Below the pieces are notes generated by a model. It made no database searches, was not told the origin of the DNA, and saw only the letters and a program-made list of their open reading frames with translations. Positions 1,933 through 11,343 of a stretch of 64,000 nucleotides of DNA are shown here, piece by piece (position 1 is the first letter of the stretch; the number at the start of each line of letters is the position of its first letter). Both the position numbers and the translations under genes were made by a program. Origin of the DNA: Pseudomonadota bacterium (lineage in GTDB: Bacteria > Pseudomonadota > Alphaproteobacteria > Caulobacterales > Caulobacteraceae); contig JAKBBV010000006.1 of the NCBI GenBank assembly GCA_021808285.1, positions 1-64,000 on the forward strand, read 5' to 3'.

Positions 1933-2480
1933 GCAAGCGCATCGTGACCCCGGCGCCGCGGCTCGTCACCCCTCGGCTGACTCTCAGCGGGCACAGTCTC
2001 GACGACTTCGCCGACAGTCTCGCGCTCTGGTCGGATGAAGATGTGGTGCGCTTCATCGGCGGCAAGCCCAACACGGCCGAGGAGGTGTGGACCCGCCTGA
2101 TCCGGCATGCGGGCATGTGGGCGCTGTTCGGCTTCGGCGCCTGGTCGATCCGCGAGACCGTCAGCGGCCGGTTTGTCGGCGAGGCGGGTCTGATGCGCCT
2201 GAAGCGGGCGATCTTGCCGCCGCTTGGGCCTGATCCGGAGGCGGGCTGGGCGCTGCTGCCCTGGGCGCACGGAAAGGGCTATGCCCGCGAGGCCATGGAG
2301 GCGATCCTAGCCTGGGCCGATGAGACCCTCGGGTCGGTGCGCACAGTGTGCATCATCGATCCCCAGAACGGGCCCTCCCTGCGCCTCGCCGGGCGGCTCG
2401 GCTATCAGCGGCTCGCCCAGGGGGCCTATCGGGATGAGCCGACAGTTGTTCTGGAGCGCCGACGACCGCGCACGTCATAG
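1929..2480 (+). CDS. GNAT-family N-acetyltransferase (RimJ/RimL type)
   Basis: 183 residues. The start is the ATG at 1929, which overlaps the previous stop; an in-frame extension upstream only shadows the thioesterase gene. The N-terminus (RLVTPRLTLSG) and the acetyl-CoA pyrophosphate loop HGKGYA at residues 114-119 fit the RimJ/RimL-like acetyltransferases, which acetylate protein N-termini or small molecules. It is the third member of a coupled operon with two thioesterases. The acceptor is unknown. The same reading frame continues open for 39 codons after the TAG stop (see findings). Confidence 0.8.
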   Translation: MSKRIVTPAPRLVTPRLTLSGHSLDDFADSLALWSDEDVVRFIGGKPNTAEEVWTRLIRHAGMWALFGFGAWSIRETVSGRFVGEAGLMRLKRAILPPLGPDPEAGWALLPWAHGKGYAREAMEAILAWADETLGSVRTVCIIDPQNGPSLRLAGRLGYQRLAQGAYRDEPTVVLERRRPRTS

Positions 2481-2609
2481 GCGCCTGATCACGGCGTCAC
2501 GGGCGGGCTTCGGTCAGCCCGCGGCGACATTCAGCCCACCTGGAAGGACGGCGTGGAGTTCAAGGCCAAGCGCGATCCCAGGGCCTCTGCGCGGCGATAG
2601 GGCCGCCCC

Positions 2610-4550
2610 CTAGGCCTTGGTCTGGGCCAGATGCTGCGCGGCCTGGAGCGCGGCCCAGTGTGGGGCGAGGGGCAGGGCGGCGTCGTACTTGGCCTTGGCG
2701 CCGCGCCAGTCGCCTTGCCGGACCAGGACATCGCCCCACAGCTTGAGGGGGTCGGCGTATCGTGGGCCAAGGGCGTGGGCCTTTTGCGCGTCCGCCCGGG
2801 CGCCGGTCAGATCGCCCCAGCCCAGGCGCGCCACGCCCCGCTCCACATAGGCCTTGGGCAGGTCGGGGCCATCGGCGATGGCCAGGGCGAAAGCGCTCTC
2901 GGCCGTCGCCCGATCATGGGCGATGGCAGCCACATCGCCCCGGGTCCACTGGCAGGCATAGCAGTCCGGCGGGAAGCTCGCGGCCAAGGCGCGCGCGGCG
3001 GCCGGATCTCCGAACCGCGCTTCCGCCAGGGCGAGATAGGGGCCGTCATCGCGAAAGACGATGTTGTGAACGTTCTGGGAGTCGTGCCCCTGGCCTCCAA
3101 TGAGAGCAACGTCTGTCGCGTCCGCTTTACGGCTAGAGGTGACGCCTGACCGATCCCCAAGGAACTGAATCTGCGGCAGAATGGCTCCCACGCTTCGGGT
3201 CAAGGTCAGAGCGCTAGCATCTCCGCGCTCCAGGGCGATTAGGCTCAGCAATTCCAGGCCTTGGCGGTCCTGCGCGTCGATGGCGCCGGCATCGGCCTGT
3301 GCGTCGAGCGGATCGTGGTCGGCGACCTCCGCATAGGGCAAGGCATCCACGCTGACATCATGGCCGAAGGTCACAGCCGCCCGACCATCCTGTCGGCTTA
3401 ACTGGGCCATCGTAGTAAAATCACCTTTCTCGAAGGCGATAGAAATGCGGGCCGTTCGGACGGAAAATGCGTCTTGATTTCGCGACACGTCTCCAGGGCG
3501 GCGCGTGATGGCGCGTTCGAGGCTCCGCATCGCGTGCAGCACACCCTCGTCGTGACCGAGAAAGGCCTCGCTCAAGGCCAGATCGCGATAGGCAGGTGAG
3601 AAGTCGGGAATGACGCCGAGGGCTTCGTGAAGTTCCTCTTCCGCAATCCCGAAATCGCCATGATCAATCATCTCGTCACCGGCTAACCCGATGTGGGCCC
3701 AGGCGCGCTCTTGGAGACTTGGGCTTGTGGTCAGCTTGACCAGGATGGCGTGCGCATTGGCCATCTCACCGCGCTGGCTGAGCAGGATCGAGTACCGATA
3801 AGGTTGGGTGCGAGCGTAGAGGGCCTCGGCCGCCTTCTCGAGAAGGCCGTCCAGATCGCCGGCGGCGCCGGTGACGGGCGGGGTCGGGTCATCACCGGAT
3901 CGCGCCGTGATGGTCAGGCCGCCGGGACCTTCGAAAATCTCGCCGGTGATGCGGGTCTCGTGGCCGAGCCAGGCGCGAAGATAGCTCTGCGCCTCACCCA
4001 GGGAGACGCCGGTCTCGGGAATCTCGACCTTCAGGTCACTGCCCCAGTCGTTTGTGTAGGTGCTCGCCGCCCGCATGCTCTGGGTCTGGGCTTGCAGCGC
4101 CGCCAGGCGGTCGAGCACCTGCTTGGCCACCACCTGGCCGGTCAGGCCCCGCGCCGCCAGGTCCGGAGGAACGGAGAAGGCCTCCACCACCAGGCCATGA
4201 TCGTGCGCGGCATCCCAGGCCATGACGCCGAGCCCGGCCAGGACGCCTCCAACGACGAGGACGAGGACGAGCTGAAGGATCGCTCTTAGACCATCAATGA
4301 AGCGGCGAATCTTCAGCTGTGAAATGAGGACGCTGCGCTGTTCATGCAGGTGCTCGGTCTGGATCTCCACCAGGCGCGACTGGCGCGCGAAATAGTCGCT
4401 GGCGCGCCGGGTCAGCTCCGGATCGGTCTTGGCCGCGTCGCTCGCCAGCGCCGCGGCGGTGGGGTCCAGTCCGGCGCCCGGGGTCAGACCCTCGCCGCCC
4501 CCCTCCTCGCCCTCGCCGCCAAGAAGCTCCCCGATCGGGTTTTCGGCCAT
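2610..4550 (-). CDS. Membrane-anchored TPR-repeat protein, paralogue A
   Basis: 646 residues, starting at MAENPIGELLG. A longer in-frame start overlaps the upstream paralogue and is rejected. Layout: an acidic glycine-rich N-terminus, a helical segment at about 50-85 (LVEIQTEHLHEQR), one membrane span at about 88-110, an extracytoplasmic domain opening VVEAFSVPPDLAARGLTGQ (121-139), then TPR-like helices to the end. A CYAC motif lies near residue 500. It sits 10 bp after a close paralogue, so the two form an operon. I recognise the layout as one shared by several alphaproteobacterial TPR proteins but cannot name a function. The C-terminal part is nearly identical to paralogue B while the middle is diverged. 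Confidence 0.78.
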   Translation of the reverse strand: MAENPIGELLGGEGEEGGGEGLTPGAGLDPTAAALASDAAKTDPELTRRASDYFARQSRLVEIQTEHLHEQRSVLISQLKIRRFIDGLRAILQLVLVLVVGGVLAGLGVMAWDAAHDHGLVVEAFSVPPDLAARGLTGQVVAKQVLDRLAALQAQTQSMRAASTYTNDWGSDLKVEIPETGVSLGEAQSYLRAWLGHETRITGEIFEGPGGLTITARSGDDPTPPVTGAAGDLDGLLEKAAEALYARTQPYRYSILLSQRGEMANAHAILVKLTTSPSLQERAWAHIGLAGDEMIDHGDFGIAEEELHEALGVIPDFSPAYRDLALSEAFLGHDEGVLHAMRSLERAITRRPGDVSRNQDAFSVRTARISIAFEKGDFTTMAQLSRQDGRAAVTFGHDVSVDALPYAEVADHDPLDAQADAGAIDAQDRQGLELLSLIALERGDASALTLTRSVGAILPQIQFLGDRSGVTSSRKADATDVALIGGQGHDSQNVHNIVFRDDGPYLALAEARFGDPAAARALAASFPPDCYACQWTRGDVAAIAHDRATAESAFALAIADGPDLPKAYVERGVARLGWGDLTGARADAQKAHALGPRYADPLKLWGDVLVRQGDWRGAKAKYDAALPLAPHWAALQAAQHLAQTKA

Positions 4551-4560
4551 CTCCGCCCCC

Positions 4561-6414
4561 CTAGACCTTCGTCTGCGCCAGGCGTCGCGCGGCCTGGAGC
4601 GCGGTCCAGTGCGGGGCGAGGGGCAGGGCGGCGTCGTACTTGGCCTTGGCGCCGCGCCAGTCGCCTCGCCGGGCCAGGACGTCGCCCCATAGCTTGAGGG
4701 GGTCGGCATAGCGCGGTCCGAGGGCGTGGGCCTTTTGGGCGTCGGCCAGGGCGCCGGTCAGATCGCCCCAGCCCAGACGCGCCACGCCCCGCTCCACATA
4801 GGCCTTGGGCAGGTCGGGGCCATCGGCGATGGCCAGGGCGAAGGCGCTCTCGGCCGTCGCGCGATCATGGGCGAGGGCGGCCACATCGCCTCGGGTCCAC
4901 TGGCAGGGATAGCAGTCCGGCGGGAAGCTCGCGGCCAGGGCGCGCGCAGCGGCCGGATCTCCAAACCGCGCTTCCGCCAGGGCGAGATAGGGGCCGTCGA
5001 CACGCAGGACGATATCTTGAATGTGTTTCGGGTCGTCGCCCTGCCCCTTCATGTCGACAGTGTTCTTGGCTTCGAGGGCGCGCGCCAAGCCAAGGGCGGA
5101 GGGATCGCCGCGCTCCAGGGCGATCTGGGTTTGCAATTCGATGTCCTCCCCGTCCCTTTTGCCCAGACTCTGCGAGTGAATGTACGCGTCAGCAGGGTCG
5201 TGATCAGCAACCTCGGCGAAAGGCAGGGGGTCCACACTGAGATGCCGCAGAAAGGGCACGCGCGCGCCGTCGTCGTCTCGGCTCATCTGCGCCGTGCCCG
5301 AGTAATCGCCCCTTTCAAATGCGATTGTCATGCCGGAACTGAGCTCGGCGGATGTCTCCGTCACTTGAGAGAGGTCTCCAGGACGGCGCCTGATCGCGCG
5401 TCGAAGGCTCTGCATCGCGTGCAGGACGCCCTCATCGTGGCCGAGATAGGCCTCGCAAACGGTCAAATTGTCATCTGCCGCCGCGAAGTCAGGTAAGATT
5501 TTCAGGGCGTCACGAATTTCCTGTTCCGCGACCTGAACGTCAGTGTGAGCCGCCATTGCCTCGACCGCCAATCCGTTATGGGCCCAGGCGCGCTCCTGGG
5601 GACTTGAGCTCGTGGTCAGCTTGACGAGGATGGCGTGCGATCCGGTCATGTCCCCGCGGTCAGACAGGAAAGTCGAGTACCGATAAGGCTGGGTTTGGGC
5701 GTAGAGCGCCTCGGCGGTCTTTTCGAGAAGGTTGTCCAGGTCGGCGGCGCCGCCGGCCACGGGCGGCGTGGGCGCGTCGCCGGATCGCGTCGTAACGGTC
5801 AAGCCGCCAGGGGTCTCGAAGATCTCGCCGGTGATGCGGGTTTCGTGGCCGAGCGACGCCCGAAGATAGCGTTGCACCTCGCCCAGGGAGACGCCCGTCT
5901 CGGGAATCTCGACCTTGAGGTCGTCGCCCCAGTTGTTCGTGTAAGTGCTCGCCGGCCGTATACTCCGGGTCTGGTCTTGTAGGGCCGCCAGGCGGTCCAG
6001 CACCTGCTTGGCCACGACCTGGCCGGTCAGGCCCCGCGCCGCCAGGTCCGGCGGAACGGAGAAGGCCTCCACCACCAGGCCATGATCGTGCGCCGCGTCC
6101 CAGGCCATGACGCCAAGCCCCGCCACCAGAGCCGCCGCGACCAGGGCGATCAGGGCTTGCAGGCCGACCTTGAGCGCCTCGCCCAGGCGTCGCCATCTGA
6201 GGAGGGCGATCTGAACCGCGCGCTGTTCGTGCAGGTGCTCGGTCTGGATCTCCACCAGGCGGCGCGCGCCGATCAGATAGGCCCGGGCTTCGGGGCTGCC
6301 GCCGGCCTCGTCCAAAGCGACGGCGTCGGCGAGAGAGGCCCCAACGGAAGGCGACTCGCCGCCGTCCTCACCCTCGCCGCCGAGCGCGCCTTCGATCCCG
6401 CCCTTCTCCGCCAT
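4561..6414 (-). CDS. Membrane-anchored TPR-repeat protein, paralogue B
   Basis: 617 residues from MAEKGGIEG, the first gene of the leftward pair and divergent from lysS across 172 bp. It has the same architecture as paralogue A: acidic Gly-rich start, a RRLVEIQTEHLHEQR segment near 51-65, a membrane span at about 83-105, the VVEAFSVPPDLAARG domain and C-terminal TPRs with FPPDCYPCQW. Both paralogues carry the phrases KVEIPETGVSLGE and GHETRITGEIFE in the extracytoplasmic domain. A direct tandem duplication is the simplest explanation. A sensor or scaffold of the envelope is possible, but no catalytic motif is visible. Confidence 0.78.
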   Translation of the reverse strand: MAEKGGIEGALGGEGEDGGESPSVGASLADAVALDEAGGSPEARAYLIGARRLVEIQTEHLHEQRAVQIALLRWRRLGEALKVGLQALIALVAAALVAGLGVMAWDAAHDHGLVVEAFSVPPDLAARGLTGQVVAKQVLDRLAALQDQTRSIRPASTYTNNWGDDLKVEIPETGVSLGEVQRYLRASLGHETRITGEIFETPGGLTVTTRSGDAPTPPVAGGAADLDNLLEKTAEALYAQTQPYRYSTFLSDRGDMTGSHAILVKLTTSSSPQERAWAHNGLAVEAMAAHTDVQVAEQEIRDALKILPDFAAADDNLTVCEAYLGHDEGVLHAMQSLRRAIRRRPGDLSQVTETSAELSSGMTIAFERGDYSGTAQMSRDDDGARVPFLRHLSVDPLPFAEVADHDPADAYIHSQSLGKRDGEDIELQTQIALERGDPSALGLARALEAKNTVDMKGQGDDPKHIQDIVLRVDGPYLALAEARFGDPAAARALAASFPPDCYPCQWTRGDVAALAHDRATAESAFALAIADGPDLPKAYVERGVARLGWGDLTGALADAQKAHALGPRYADPLKLWGDVLARRGDWRGAKAKYDAALPLAPHWTALQAARRLAQTKV

Positions 6415-6586
6415 GCCGCCCCCGACGTTCTCCGTGAGCGAGTGTTGCGAGGCCCGCCGGCCTTGGCAACCGTCTTGTGCTGGAGATGGCGACGGGCGAG
6501 TTGATCGCAGGGCGTCAGGGCGCGTCTCCCGCTCACCGGACGCCGCTCGATTGACCCCGCCTCGCGCGGGCTTTACCGCGACGCCT

Positions 6587-8290
6587 ATGTTGAACGGACT
6601 TTCCTCCCTGGCGCGGGCCGCCAAGCCCTGGTCGTTCGAGCAGGCGCGCAACGTACTGGCGCGTCTCGTGAAGGTGCGCCTTGGCGAGGCGGAGCGCGAT
6701 CTGGCGGGGGCGCTGATCGCCGGGGGCCGGGCGGCCGAAGCCGTCGCCGCCTGTCCGGAGCTGGCGCGACCGGTGCTGTTCCAGACCGGCTATGGCGCCT
6801 CGGGCCTGCCGCACATCGGCACGTTCAATGAGGTGGCGCGCACGACCATGGTCATCGCGGCCTTCCGCGCCCTGACCGAGGAGGCGATCCCCACGCGCCT
6901 GCTGTCCTTCTCCGACGACATGGACGGGCTGCGAAAGGTCCCCGAGAACGTCCCCAACCAGGATCTCCTGGCCCTGGATCTGGGCAAGCCGCTCACGAGC
7001 GTGCGCGACCCGTTCGGCGAACAGCCGAGCTTTGGCGAATACAATAATGTGCGCATGCGCGCCTTCCTTGACGAACAGGGCTTCGCCTATGAGTTCCTGT
7101 CCTCCACGCAGTGCTACCGGTCCGGGCGTTTCGATGGAATGTTGAGGCTGATGCTGGAGCGGTTCGACGCCGTTCAAGCGGTCATGCTGCCTACCCTCGG
7201 CCCCGAGCGCCGCGCCACCTATTCTCCCTTCCTGCCGATCAGCCCCGTCAGCGGGCGGGTCCTGCAGGTTCCCACCCTGAAGCGCCATCCCGATCGCGGG
7301 ACCATTGTGTTCGAGGACGAGGATGGAGCGCGCAAGGAGATCCCGGTCACCGGCGGGGCGGTGAAGCTGCAATGGAAGCCCGACTGGGCCTGTCGCTGGG
7401 CGGCTTTCGGCGTCGACTATGAGATGGCTGGGAAGGACCTCATCGAGTCGGTGAAGGTTTCCTCGCGCATCTGCGAAATCTTGGGCGGGACGCCGCCGGA
7501 GGGCTTCAATTTCGAGCTGTTCCTCGACCAGAACAACCAGAAGATCTCCAAGTCCAAGGGCAATGGCCTGACCCTGGAGGAGTGGCGCCGCTATGGCCCG
7601 CCGGAGAGCCTCGTCTATTATCTCTTCCAGTCGCCGCGCTCGGCCAAGAAGCTGTATTTCGACGTCATTCCCAAGGCCACGGACGAGTACCTGCAGCAGC
7701 TCGACGCCTTCAACGCCGCGCGCGGCGCGCCCATCCTTGGCGATCGGCCCGCGCCCAATCCCCTCGACAATCCGGTGTGGAGCGTTCACGGCGGCGCGCC
7801 GCCGGAGACGGGATCGCCGGTCTCATTCAGCCTGCTCTTGAACCTCGTCTCGGCGGCCAACGCCTCGGACAAGAGCATTCTGTGGGGCTTCATCCGCCGG
7901 CAGTTTCCCGGGGCGAGCCCGGAAAGCGAACCACTGCTCGACCGCCTCACCGCCTACGCGCTCAACTATTATGAGGACTTCGTCGCGCCCGCGAAGCGGT
8001 TCCGCTCCCCCGACGCCCGGGAGCGGGCGGCGATGGAGGACCTGCTCGCGCGTCTGAGCGACCTTCCGGACGACTGCCGCGACGGCGAGACCATCCAGAA
8101 CGAGGTCTACGCGGCCGGCAAGGAAGCCGGGTTCGAGCCCTTGCGGGCCTGGTTCATGGCCCTCTATGAGGTGCTGCTCGGCCAGAGCACGGGCCCGCGC
8201 TTTGGGTCCTTCGCGGCGATCTTCGGCCTTCCCGAGACGCGCGATCTGATCGCACGGGCGCTCAAGGGCGAATTCCTGAAACCGGACTGA
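6587..8290 (+). CDS. lysS: Lysyl-tRNA synthetase, class I
   Basis: 567 residues from the ATG at 6587; longer in-frame starts run into the divergent TPR gene. The class I signatures are plain: PHIG at residues 75-78 within GYGASGLPHIGTFNEV, and KISKS at about 319-323. The protein charges tRNA-Lys. Class I LysRS (lysK type) occurs in archaea and many alphaproteobacteria in place of the class II enzyme, which supports the taxonomic reading. It stands alone and converges on the acetyltransferase gene 17 bp downstream. Confidence 0.95.
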   Translation: MLNGLSSLARAAKPWSFEQARNVLARLVKVRLGEAERDLAGALIAGGRAAEAVAACPELARPVLFQTGYGASGLPHIGTFNEVARTTMVIAAFRALTEEAIPTRLLSFSDDMDGLRKVPENVPNQDLLALDLGKPLTSVRDPFGEQPSFGEYNNVRMRAFLDEQGFAYEFLSSTQCYRSGRFDGMLRLMLERFDAVQAVMLPTLGPERRATYSPFLPISPVSGRVLQVPTLKRHPDRGTIVFEDEDGARKEIPVTGGAVKLQWKPDWACRWAAFGVDYEMAGKDLIESVKVSSRICEILGGTPPEGFNFELFLDQNNQKISKSKGNGLTLEEWRRYGPPESLVYYLFQSPRSAKKLYFDVIPKATDEYLQQLDAFNAARGAPILGDRPAPNPLDNPVWSVHGGAPPETGSPVSFSLLLNLVSAANASDKSILWGFIRRQFPGASPESEPLLDRLTAYALNYYEDFVAPAKRFRSPDARERAAMEDLLARLSDLPDDCRDGETIQNEVYAAGKEAGFEPLRAWFMALYEVLLGQSTGPRFGSFAAIFGLPETRDLIARALKGEFLKPD

Positions 8291-8307
8291 GCCGGCGGCG
8301 GGGCCGC

Positions 8308-8895
8308 TCAGGTCGGCCTCGCGATGCGGAACCGAAGGCTTTCGCCGCCGCCCATGGAGGCGGGCTTCTCGAACCGCCCCACGAGCGTCCCGGCCTGGGC
8401 GAGGATGACCCTTTGCGAGGCGAGATTGTCCGGCTGGGTGGTCAGTTCCACATGGGGCAGATCTCGCCGCCAGGCCTCCTGGAGGATCAGGCCCAGGGCC
8501 GCGGTGGCGCAGCCGCGTCCCCGTTTCCAGGGAACAACCGCATAGCCGATATGGCCCAGGACGTGGGGCGGAAGCTCCGCCACGCCCGGCGCGCTCCAAC
8601 GCAGGGAGACGACGCCGCAGAAATCGTCATCCCAGATCCAGCGAGTGACGCCGGGCAGTCGCGGAAGGGTCGCGCCATCCAGGCCCCGGATCGGCGGCAG
8701 ACGTCCCTCGGGATCGTCGCTCCGCGCCACGAAGGCGTCGGGGTCATGGGCGATGGCCTCCAACTGCTCGCGCACGGCGATCGTGCCGCGGATATTGTCC
8801 GGGCTCCAGCCGGCTTCGAGGGCCGCCACATAGCGCGGCAGGCGCGCCAGGGAGAAGGGCTCCAATGTGACGGTCGGACTGAGGGTCTGGCTCAT
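8308..8895 (-). CDS. GNAT-family N-acetyltransferase
   Basis: 195 residues starting MSQTLSPTVTLEPF; an upstream in-frame ATG at 8997 would add an Arg/Pro-rich stretch unlike the family. The acetyl-CoA binding loop KRGRGCAT falls at residues 124-131, preceded by the strand HIGYAVVPW. The gene is monocistronic and convergent with lysS. The acceptor substrate is unknown. Confidence 0.78.
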   Translation of the reverse strand: MSQTLSPTVTLEPFSLARLPRYVAALEAGWSPDNIRGTIAVREQLEAIAHDPDAFVARSDDPEGRLPPIRGLDGATLPRLPGVTRWIWDDDFCGVVSLRWSAPGVAELPPHVLGHIGYAVVPWKRGRGCATAALGLILQEAWRRDLPHVELTTQPDNLASQRVILAQAGTLVGRFEKPASMGGGESLRFRIARPT

Positions 8896-9612
8896 GGCGT
8901 CAAGGCTCCAGGGCGAGGAAACCCTCGGGGAGCCCACGGGACCCCGCCGGGGGCGGGGTCGGGAAACGGCGTCGCTTAGGTGCAGGCGCGCGCGCATCCC
9001 CGGCCCCGGAGGGGCTGGCGGCGGAGACGGCGGTCATACGCGACGGCGAACATGGCGGCGTCTCTTAGCGCCGGCGCGGCAAAAGGCAAGGCGCCAAGGG
9101 ACCGGTCGCGTGACGCACTGAGCTCGGGCCGCGGATTTTGCGATTCACGATCGTTTAAGCTATTGTTATATTAGGTTTTTTCTAGATCCGAGACGGAGAA
9201 ACCTCCGTGTTTGCGGGCGATATTGGCCGCATCCCTGGCCACAGATTGGCGGCGGATTGGCATCGGAAGCGCATCAGTTCGGCATCGACCGGGCCGGCTC
9301 CTGGCCGGTCTCTGGCCGTTCCTTCGGGAGGCGACCCGCTTTCGTACAGGGGTCGGCGAGATGACCGCGGCGGGTGCGCGGTTTTGCATCGAGTCTGAAG
9401 TCGCGCAGCGTCGCCGATATATTTCGTTTTGTCAAGGTTTATCGCCATATCCCCCGATTATGCGCCCATGGATTGCTTTTCGCAATCACCCGAGGTCTCG
9501 GACGCGGAGGTGATGATTTCGCCCCAAGGCCTTGACGCCGAGGGCCCCGCGGGCGCCAACTGGGATTCAAACGATCGTTCGAAGACTCGGAACACACCAG
9601 GGAGACGCGCCC
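8896..9612. other. 717-bp intergenic region without a supportable gene
   Basis: Short reading frames exist on both strands but none has a convincing start, composition or recognisable domain. The stretch around 9140-9185 is AT-rich for this genome and could carry promoters for the acetyltransferase or for the rightward deacylase. Two similar palindromic words occur, ACGATCGT at 9147-9154 and AACGATCGTT at 9570-9579, both preceded by GATTCA. The second lies about 35 bp before the deacylase start. They could be operator half-sites, but two short matches are weak evidence. Confidence 0.5.
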
Positions 9613-11343
9613 ATGGCCAGCGCCTATGATCTCGTCATTCGCGGCGCCGAGGTGTTCGATGGCGACGGAGGGCCCTCGCGCCAGGCGGATCTCGCCATCA
9701 GCGGCGGACGCATCGCCCTGGTCGGCGCCGTGGCGGGACGCGGCGCGGAGGAGATCGACGCGCGGGGCCTGATCGCCGCCCCGGGCTTTGTCGACATCCA
9801 TACCCATTACGACGGCCAGGCCACCTGGGACACGCATATGCAGCCCTCGTCCTGGCATGGCGTGACCACCGTGGTGATGGGCAATTGCGGCGTCGGATTC
9901 GCCCCCTGCCGCGAGGCCGATCACGACCGCCTGATCCGCCTCATGGAGGGGGTGGAGGACATCCCCTTCCCCGTCCTCACCGAGGGTCTGGACTGGAGCT
10001 GGACGAGCTATCCCGACTATCTGGAGACGCTCTCGGCCCGTCGATTCGACGTGGACGTGGGAAGTCAGCTCCCCCACGCGGCCCTGCGCGTCTTCGTCAT
10101 GGGCCAGCGCGGCGTCGATCGCGAGCCGGCCACGGCCGAGGACATCGCCGCCATGTCTGCCCTGGCCAAGACGGCCATGGAGGCGGGGTCGCTCGGCTTC
10201 TCCACCTCGCGCACCCTCAATCACCGCACCAGCGACGGCCAACCGACGCCGACGCTCACCGCCGACGAAGACGAGCTCACCGGAATCGCGCTGGGCCTCA
10301 CCGCCGCCGGTCGCGGCGTGGTCCAGGTGGTCTCCGACTTCGCCGATCCCGAGGCCGAGTTCGCCATGTTGCGGCGGATCGCCGAGACGAGCGGCCGGCC
10401 TTTGTCCTTCACCCTGGCCCAGGGAGGACGCGACCCCAAGGGATATCGCCGCCTCCTGGCCGCACTCGAAGCGGCCACCGGTGCAGGACTGCCGATCAAG
10501 GCCCAGGCCGCGGCGCGGGCGGTGGGCGTGCTCCTGGGACTGGAGCTCACGGTCAATCCCTTCAGCCGCTGGCCGGTCTATCGGGAGATCGCCGCCCTCA
10601 GCCTGGCCGAGCGGGTGGAGCGGCTGCGCGATCCGCTGTTCCGAGCCCGCCTCCTGGCGAGTCCGCCGGAAGAGGCCGGCCGCGCCCTTGCCAGCGACTG
10701 GACGCGCATGTTCCTGTTCGGACCGGAGCCGGACTATGAGCCCTCACCCGAGGCTTCGGTCGCGGCGCATGCGGCGCGCCAGGGCCGAGAGCCCGAAGGC
10801 GTGGCCCTCGATCACATGCTCAGTCGCGAGGGCCGGGGCATGCTCTATGTCCCTTTCCTCAACTACAGTGAGGGCTCGCTCGACGCCGTGCGCGAGATGC
10901 TGATCCACCCGGACACCGTGCCCGGCCTCTCGGACGGGGGCGCCCATGTGGGCATGATCTGCGACGGCAGCTTCCCCACCTCCCTTCTGACCCTCTGGAC
11001 GCGCGACCGCACGCGCGGACCGAAGATCCCGCTCGCCGAGGCCATCCGACTCCAGACCCGCGAGACCGCGCGGTGCGTGGGGCTGCACGACCGGGGCCGC
11101 CTGGCGGTCGGATATCGGGCCGATCTCAACCTGATCGATTATGACGCGTTGAGCCTCGACGCACCGGAGGTGGCCTACGACCTGCCGGCCGGGGGGCGGC
11201 GGCTGATCCAGCGGGCGCGCGGCTATCGCGCTACGCTCGTGGCCGGTCAGGTTACCTATCGCGACGGCGCCCCCACGGGCGTCCTTCCGGGGAGACTGCT
11301 GCGCGGCGCCCAGACCGCGCCCGCAGTTCTGGCGGCGGAATAG
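9613..11343 (+). CDS. N-acyl-D-amino-acid deacylase / D-aminoacylase-family amidohydrolase
   Basis: 576 residues from the ATG at 9613, preceded by GGGAG. The protein is an amidohydrolase-superfamily TIM barrel. It has the metal-binding HTH at residues 63-65 (DIHTHYDGQ), a cysteine in GNCGVGFAPC at about 92 that matches the metal-ligand cysteine of D-aminoacylases, and a late GLSDGGAHVG with the catalytic Asp. The family hydrolyses N-acyl-D-amino acids and related compounds. It lies 24 bp before a TauD/TfdA oxygenase gene, probably in the same transcript, which suggests a small catabolic unit. The exact substrate is not readable. Confidence 0.88.
   Translation: MASAYDLVIRGAEVFDGDGGPSRQADLAISGGRIALVGAVAGRGAEEIDARGLIAAPGFVDIHTHYDGQATWDTHMQPSSWHGVTTVVMGNCGVGFAPCREADHDRLIRLMEGVEDIPFPVLTEGLDWSWTSYPDYLETLSARRFDVDVGSQLPHAALRVFVMGQRGVDREPATAEDIAAMSALAKTAMEAGSLGFSTSRTLNHRTSDGQPTPTLTADEDELTGIALGLTAAGRGVVQVVSDFADPEAEFAMLRRIAETSGRPLSFTLAQGGRDPKGYRRLLAALEAATGAGLPIKAQAAARAVGVLLGLELTVNPFSRWPVYREIAALSLAERVERLRDPLFRARLLASPPEEAGRALASDWTRMFLFGPEPDYEPSPEASVAAHAARQGREPEGVALDHMLSREGRGMLYVPFLNYSEGSLDAVREMLIHPDTVPGLSDGGAHVGMICDGSFPTSLLTLWTRDRTRGPKIPLAEAIRLQTRETARCVGLHDRGRLAVGYRADLNLIDYDALSLDAPEVAYDLPAGGRRLIQRARGYRATLVAGQVTYRDGAPTGVLPGRLLRGAQTAPAVLAAE

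Follow-up and report, generated by a model that had tools for sequence, protein, structure and literature searches.

Two neighbouring genes, A and B, encode related membrane-anchored proteins. Judged by synonymous divergence (dS), a block next to the membrane and the last ~145 residues are much younger than the N-terminus and the centre. The reading we favour, with a probability of about 0.7, is that of an old tandem duplication in which these two blocks were re-copied between the neighbours, with the centre and N-terminus escaping. The window (the whole 64,000-nucleotide stretch analysed, G+C 67.7%) lies on contig G000:C41 of a 2.9-Mb draft assembly in 105 contigs. The features are as follows; the borders of the span, membrane-proximal and helical parts are our own reading.

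4561-6414, minus strand: ORF, gene B (upstream copy), 617 aa
2610-4550, minus strand: ORF, gene A (downstream copy), 646 aa, with the same layout as B
Gene B ORF, minus strand: N-terminus with heptad-like RLVEIQTEHLHEQR
B residues ~87-105: single membrane span, from hydropathy and charge
B residues ~105-250: membrane-proximal part, reads as mixed alpha/beta
B residues ~250-617: helical TPR-like part, from weak TPR matches
6103-6414, minus strand: B diverged N-terminal block, residues 1-104, dS 1.21 to A
5818-6102, minus strand: B membrane-proximal similar block, residues 105-199, dS 0.32 to A
3933-4217, minus strand: A membrane-proximal similar block, residues 112-206
4996-5652, minus strand: B diverged centre, residues 255-473, dS 0.79-2.0, omega 0.22-0.33
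4561-4995, minus strand: B C-terminal similar block, residues 474-617 plus stop, dS 0.24 to A
2610-3044, minus strand: A C-terminal similar block, residues 503-646 plus stop

The genes are arranged head to tail, and the stop codon of B is separated from the ATG of A by 10 bases (gggggcggag), within which GGAG precedes the ATG. Because the gap is only 10 bases, A and B probably form one transcription unit. Promoter and terminator scans of 2400-6700 returned none, and terminator-like sites were fewer than in shuffled sequences, results that carry little weight at such a G+C content. A class I lysyl-tRNA synthetase gene (PF01921, scanned as 6587-8287, plus strand) is divergent to the pair, and past A the opposite strand carries a GNAT gene and two thioesterase genes.

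Near-identity of the two proteins at the tail and after the membrane span, described in the initial annotation, was borne out (~93% over the last ~145 residues, ~89% after the span), as was a diverged middle of unequal length (identity 0.25-0.75 over about A300-A500, with one 22-residue gap in B). Sliding windows showed that the divergence is not uniform along the length. In windows of 20 codons, identity was 0.90-1.00 in the C-terminal block (0.71 in the last 7 codons) and 0.85-1.00 just after the span. The first ~100 residues, absent from that earlier description, are diverged as well, at 0.35-0.80 per window. Twelve bins along B gave identities of 51, 35, 100, 82, 80, 62, 62, 40, 47, 78, 98 and 89%; the range is 35-51% up to residue 104 and 40-62% between residues 250 and 460. 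Base differences amount to 2-15% in windows of the similar blocks (24% for the last 7 codons), and downstream of the C-terminal block the DNA stays similar for 4 bases past the stop codon and no further.

Conserved regions alone would yield the same picture at the protein level, so synonymous sites were needed. Estimates of dS (NG86) by B residues were 1.21 (1-104), 0.32 (105-199), 0.66 (200-254), 0.79 (255-350), 2.01 (351-473, near saturation) and 0.24 (474-617). The similar blocks are ~2.5- to 8-fold below the centre and N-terminus, and the total spread is about eightfold. This synonymous patchwork matches the protein patchwork, which indicates that the blocks differ in age, and not in constraint alone. 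Strongly unequal synonymous divergence between blocks, our test for a gene-converted pair, was found in A/B, and blocks of unequal age are best explained by recombination between the copies. The initial annotation had placed gene conversion at the ends, a location that needs some correction: the N-terminal 100 residues are old, and the homogenised blocks are the membrane-proximal segment and the C-terminus.

Codons for the same amino acid were identical in A and B in 176 of 213 cases in the similar blocks versus 115 of 197 elsewhere (Fisher p = 7e-8), and the difference in pS between blocks was equalled in 0 of 2000 label permutations and 7 of 622 rotations; the block borders in all three tests were picked after inspection of the data. 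A border-free scan selected B residues 478-617 (109/127 identical inside versus 184/287 outside), a result reached in 3 of 500 permutations. A run-based scan on the same codons gave less, with 207/5000 for its best segment and 357/5000 for its longest run. At unchanged residues, synonymous codons were identical at 110 of 129 positions over 473-617 versus 62 of 111 over 250-473, the latter being close to the level seen against a third paralogue on contig C26 (B, 141/263; A, 136/266).

The genus mate G001 was used for dating. Background dS between G000 and G001 was 0.65-0.83 over five flanking genes. The similar blocks of A/B (0.24-0.32) fall below this range, residues 200-350 fall within it, and the N-terminus and residues 351-473 lie above it. 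The similar blocks thus look younger than the G000/G001 split, and the remainder equally old or older. An orthologue of B occupies the same place in G001, on a contig that stops after 139 codons, and the G001 contig carrying the other flank stops about 280 bases before the end of A. The first 139 codons of B (5997-6414) share 95% DNA identity with G001:C18, with dS of 0.17 and 0.06. Residues 1-104 account for the value of 0.17, and the readable part of B is several-fold below the flanking genes, compared over 6415-9055. This suggests that B was exchanged between the two species, or that it is under unusual synonymous constraint, and the low dS weakens a strict clock for dating A/B.

The ratio omega between A and B was 0.43, 0.16, 0.21, 0.33, 0.22 and 0.14 for residues 1-104, 105-199, 200-254, 255-350, 351-473 and 474-617. 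Diversifying selection in the centre, which the initial annotation had offered as one option, was not supported by this dN/dS comparison, since omega is 0.22-0.33 there and below 1 in every block, although pairwise omega is an average that selection at a few sites could escape. Its other option, relaxed constraint, was supported: the median pairwise identity in the family is 15-25% in the centre, compared with 36-46% in the part that follows the membrane span and 33-42% in the C-terminal part. Central omega was 0.06-0.40 in six comparison pairs and higher in two other tandem sets, namely G018:C118 (0.58-0.68) and G209:C13 (0.77 and 1.41, in a centre with 15-32% matching residues, where the alignment is doubtful and the value of 1.41 comes from segments at 15-27%). 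These values allow for change that is relaxed, or even diversifying, in some arrays; A/B provide no evidence for it. In array G225:C83 (L098), the N-terminal 70 residues are 77% identical between two tandem copies, which have only 27 of 52 synonymous codons in common over the first 104; this hints that selection may keep the N-terminal part alike within that array.

A and B belong to a stand-alone membrane TPR family of Caulobacterales that is without a name in Pfam, NCBIfam and PADLOC. The source genome contains three copies. With B as a lone query, matches were found in 7 of 60 genomes, and an 18-row profile (E <= 1e-30) had matches in 42 of the 299 genomes sampled from the bacterial family, in 9 of 299 drawn order-wide (3 of the 9 from other families) and in 2 of 385 drawn class-wide, the source genome included in each count; 3-4 candidates were scored per genome in the profile searches, so copy numbers from them are lower bounds. 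A pattern scan of genome contigs with A confirmed two loci, on the G001 contig and in a Planctomycetota genome, the latter matching A at the TPR end only. In total, 75 family frames were collected in 56 loci, some of them partial at contig ends, and the longest arrays hold seven (G080:C119) and six (G298:C88) copies.

No conserved partner gene emerged, as no neighbour cluster occurred in more than 4 of 41 stretches in a survey with a home-made gene caller, which overlooks genes and also calls antisense frames. A larger cluster of 9 frames coincides by coordinates with family genes on the opposite strand. In L046 (G018:C112, 2030-4070), a whole extra family gene lies in a short spacer flanked on each side by genes shared with the related genome of L112 (G063), whose spacer near 10300-10370 has none; by the same caller, the extra stretch contains nothing else. 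Spread by phages and by plasmids was considered, and no relative was confirmed among viral contigs (179 pattern stretches) or among plasmids (B alone as query). A known anti-phage defence protein was likewise rejected, with 0 PADLOC families matched by 18 members at E up to 0.01.

In trees of the C-terminus, centre and membrane-proximal segments, A and B are sisters with support of 99, 99 and 100 and distances of 0.09, 0.79 and 0.13. The nearest centre to that of A is that of B, at 0.79, the next being at 3.42. A different tree position of individual blocks was not found for A/B in the three trees, as expected when each gene is the nearest relative of the other. The initial annotation had named ancient independent lineages as the finding that would count against its proposal; this does not apply to A and B, but the centres in array G298 look like old independent lineages. 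For its six copies, a single clade was rejected for the centre (AU p = 0.0085) but not for the C-terminus (p = 0.91), in an array picked for AU testing after the trees were inspected. A single clade in the centre of G209 was not rejected (AU p = 0.715), so that a split history is unproven for that set.

Adjacent copies were present on eight contigs (G000:C41, G018:C118, G209:C13, G298:C88, G080:C119, G225:C83, G289:C138 and G237:C1), three of which show strong C-terminal similarity between neighbours. The signal is weak in G298, and nothing comparable was seen in G080, G225, G289 and G237; for G080, G225 and G289 this also holds at third positions. On G237:C1, the fragment next to the family copy is similar to a copy from another contig and not to its neighbour. 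Between the two complete copies on G018:C118, identity is 82 and 95% in the last two bins and 40-55% at residues 250-510. Copies 2805 and 4732 of this contig, a comparison of a partial third copy with its neighbour, share 53 of 53 synonymous codons in the last stretch versus 76 of 120 outside (0/500 permutations). In the G209:C13 pair, the last two bins are 92-93% identical and the others 15-54%; because its C-terminal dS is 0.67, homogenisation there was probably an older event.

Patchworks were also found outside arrays. Orthologues G153/G157 (L105/L114) have a centre dS of 1.0-1.3 and N- and C-terminal block values of 0.23 and 0.35; seven flanking genes give 0.15-0.49, a background that the N- and C-terminal blocks match and the centre exceeds. 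Synonymous identities were 124 of 233 in segment 120-470 versus 192 of 236 outside it (0/500), and the centre has a replaced look. In the close relatives G198/G237 (L099/L108), which have different surroundings, residues 40-104 show 10 of 31 synonymous identities versus 404 of 474, suggesting a swapped N-terminus. Because these two patchworks sit outside arrays, block recombination looks like a habit of the family, beyond tandem pairs and their ends.

Under the reading we favour, an old tandem duplication of a membrane-anchored protein, with its TPR-like part toward the periplasm, would have been followed by gene conversion, or by unequal crossing-over in the array, re-copying both similar blocks after the split from G001. 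The centre and N-terminus would have escaped copying and gone on diverging, subject to ordinary purifying selection that was less strict in the centre. The reverse order of events, in which A is a recent duplicate of B, the similar ends are original and the N-terminus and centre were later replaced by diverged family DNA, is possible but unlikely. Central replacement is an alternative observed in this family: in G153/G157 the centre is the part that departs from background, and for this reason the direction in A/B is one that we infer. The suggested N-terminal swap in G198/G237 also fits such replacement. For A/B, however, it would take two separate replaced blocks, and a donor that is an unsampled near relative of B, given central distances of 0.79 versus 3.42.

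An origin without recombination, by strong constraint at the ends and weak constraint in the centre with synonymous rates following, appears very improbable. The centre is the least conserved part family-wide, several comparison pairs show a mild central increase in dS, and the spread between blocks is sixfold in G153/G157; that pair and G198/G237, where the spread is also larger when the N-terminus is included, both look mosaic. The spread in A/B is about eightfold, however, compared with 2- to 3-fold in G018:C84/G063, G207/G228, G202/G253 and G010:C101/C159, and synonymous identity rises from centre to C-terminus even at unchanged residues (62/111 to 110/129). We give still less credence to an assembly artefact in which reads of both copies were mixed in the 105-contig draft. 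Such repeats do trouble assembly, and the contigs of G001 break on both sides of the pair, but similar blocks differing at 2-15% of bases have few long words in common, neither frame is broken (omega 0.14-0.43), and similar patchworks occur in two other genomes.

Hydropathy and charge give a single membrane span, preceded by 4 Lys/Arg within 15 residues and followed by none within the next 15. This layout suggests a bitopic protein of the inner membrane, with a putative periplasmic repeat domain. TPR_2 scores were 22.0 bits for A and 18.5-19.4 for B versus a Pfam cut-off of 27, in the last repeats only. All 18 family members examined matched TPR_2 at E up to 0.1 (best 6.5e-15), one of the 18 matched TPR_21 weakly (1.8e-4), and the family profile matches many solved TPR chains. 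By hhalign, with 8 rows from 19 loci, B residues ~195-246 aligned to the TolB N-terminal domain (PF04052) with a score of 28.8 and a probability of just 10%; controls reached at most 21.7 (30 column-shuffled) and 16.4 (two reversed), and the 18 members gave no Pfam match to PF04052. An AlphaFold2 model from three rows had a mean pLDDT of 43. A sensor domain shared with cyclases was looked for in frames of 19 loci without a convincing match (best E 9e-4, whole ectodomain versus one frame), and a motif search in these loci returned nothing.

YfgM is a single-span periplasmic TPR protein, and CadC-like receptors have an alpha/beta plus helical periplasmic part. A and B resemble these in having one span, an alpha/beta-like part and helical repeats, but differ in an N-terminus without a recognised effector domain. 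From this layout, A and B could act as a single-span scaffold or sensor, in which the conserved C-terminal repeats may serve all copies as a docking surface, while the variable central repeats may set what each copy binds.

That tandem duplicates become partly homogenised is nothing unusual in evolution. Partial gene conversion, or concerted evolution of duplicates, is a general phenomenon, reported for instance for a PE_PGRS pair in tubercle bacilli (PMC1762029), where the duplicates likewise have blocks of unequal age. Unlike that pair, A and B represent a Caulobacterales membrane TPR family. Our literature searches found no paper on tetratricopeptide repeat paralogues in Caulobacteraceae, and the combination of Phenylobacterium and tetratricopeptide gave only papers whose titles and opening abstract lines concern unrelated subjects.

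The analysis documents a patchily distributed, stand-alone membrane TPR family without a name, with recombining parts and with arrays that reach seven copies. More speculatively, and with rather low probability, these proteins could be a recombining Caulobacterales receptor family with an anchor and C-terminal docking repeats common to tandem and scattered copies, whose central TPR blocks are exchanged, or kept as old lineages, to widen the partner repertoire; if so, they may serve partner recognition, for example kin or surface recognition. Should specificity reside in the centres, these natural mosaics would offer ready-made domain swaps for finding the binding partners.
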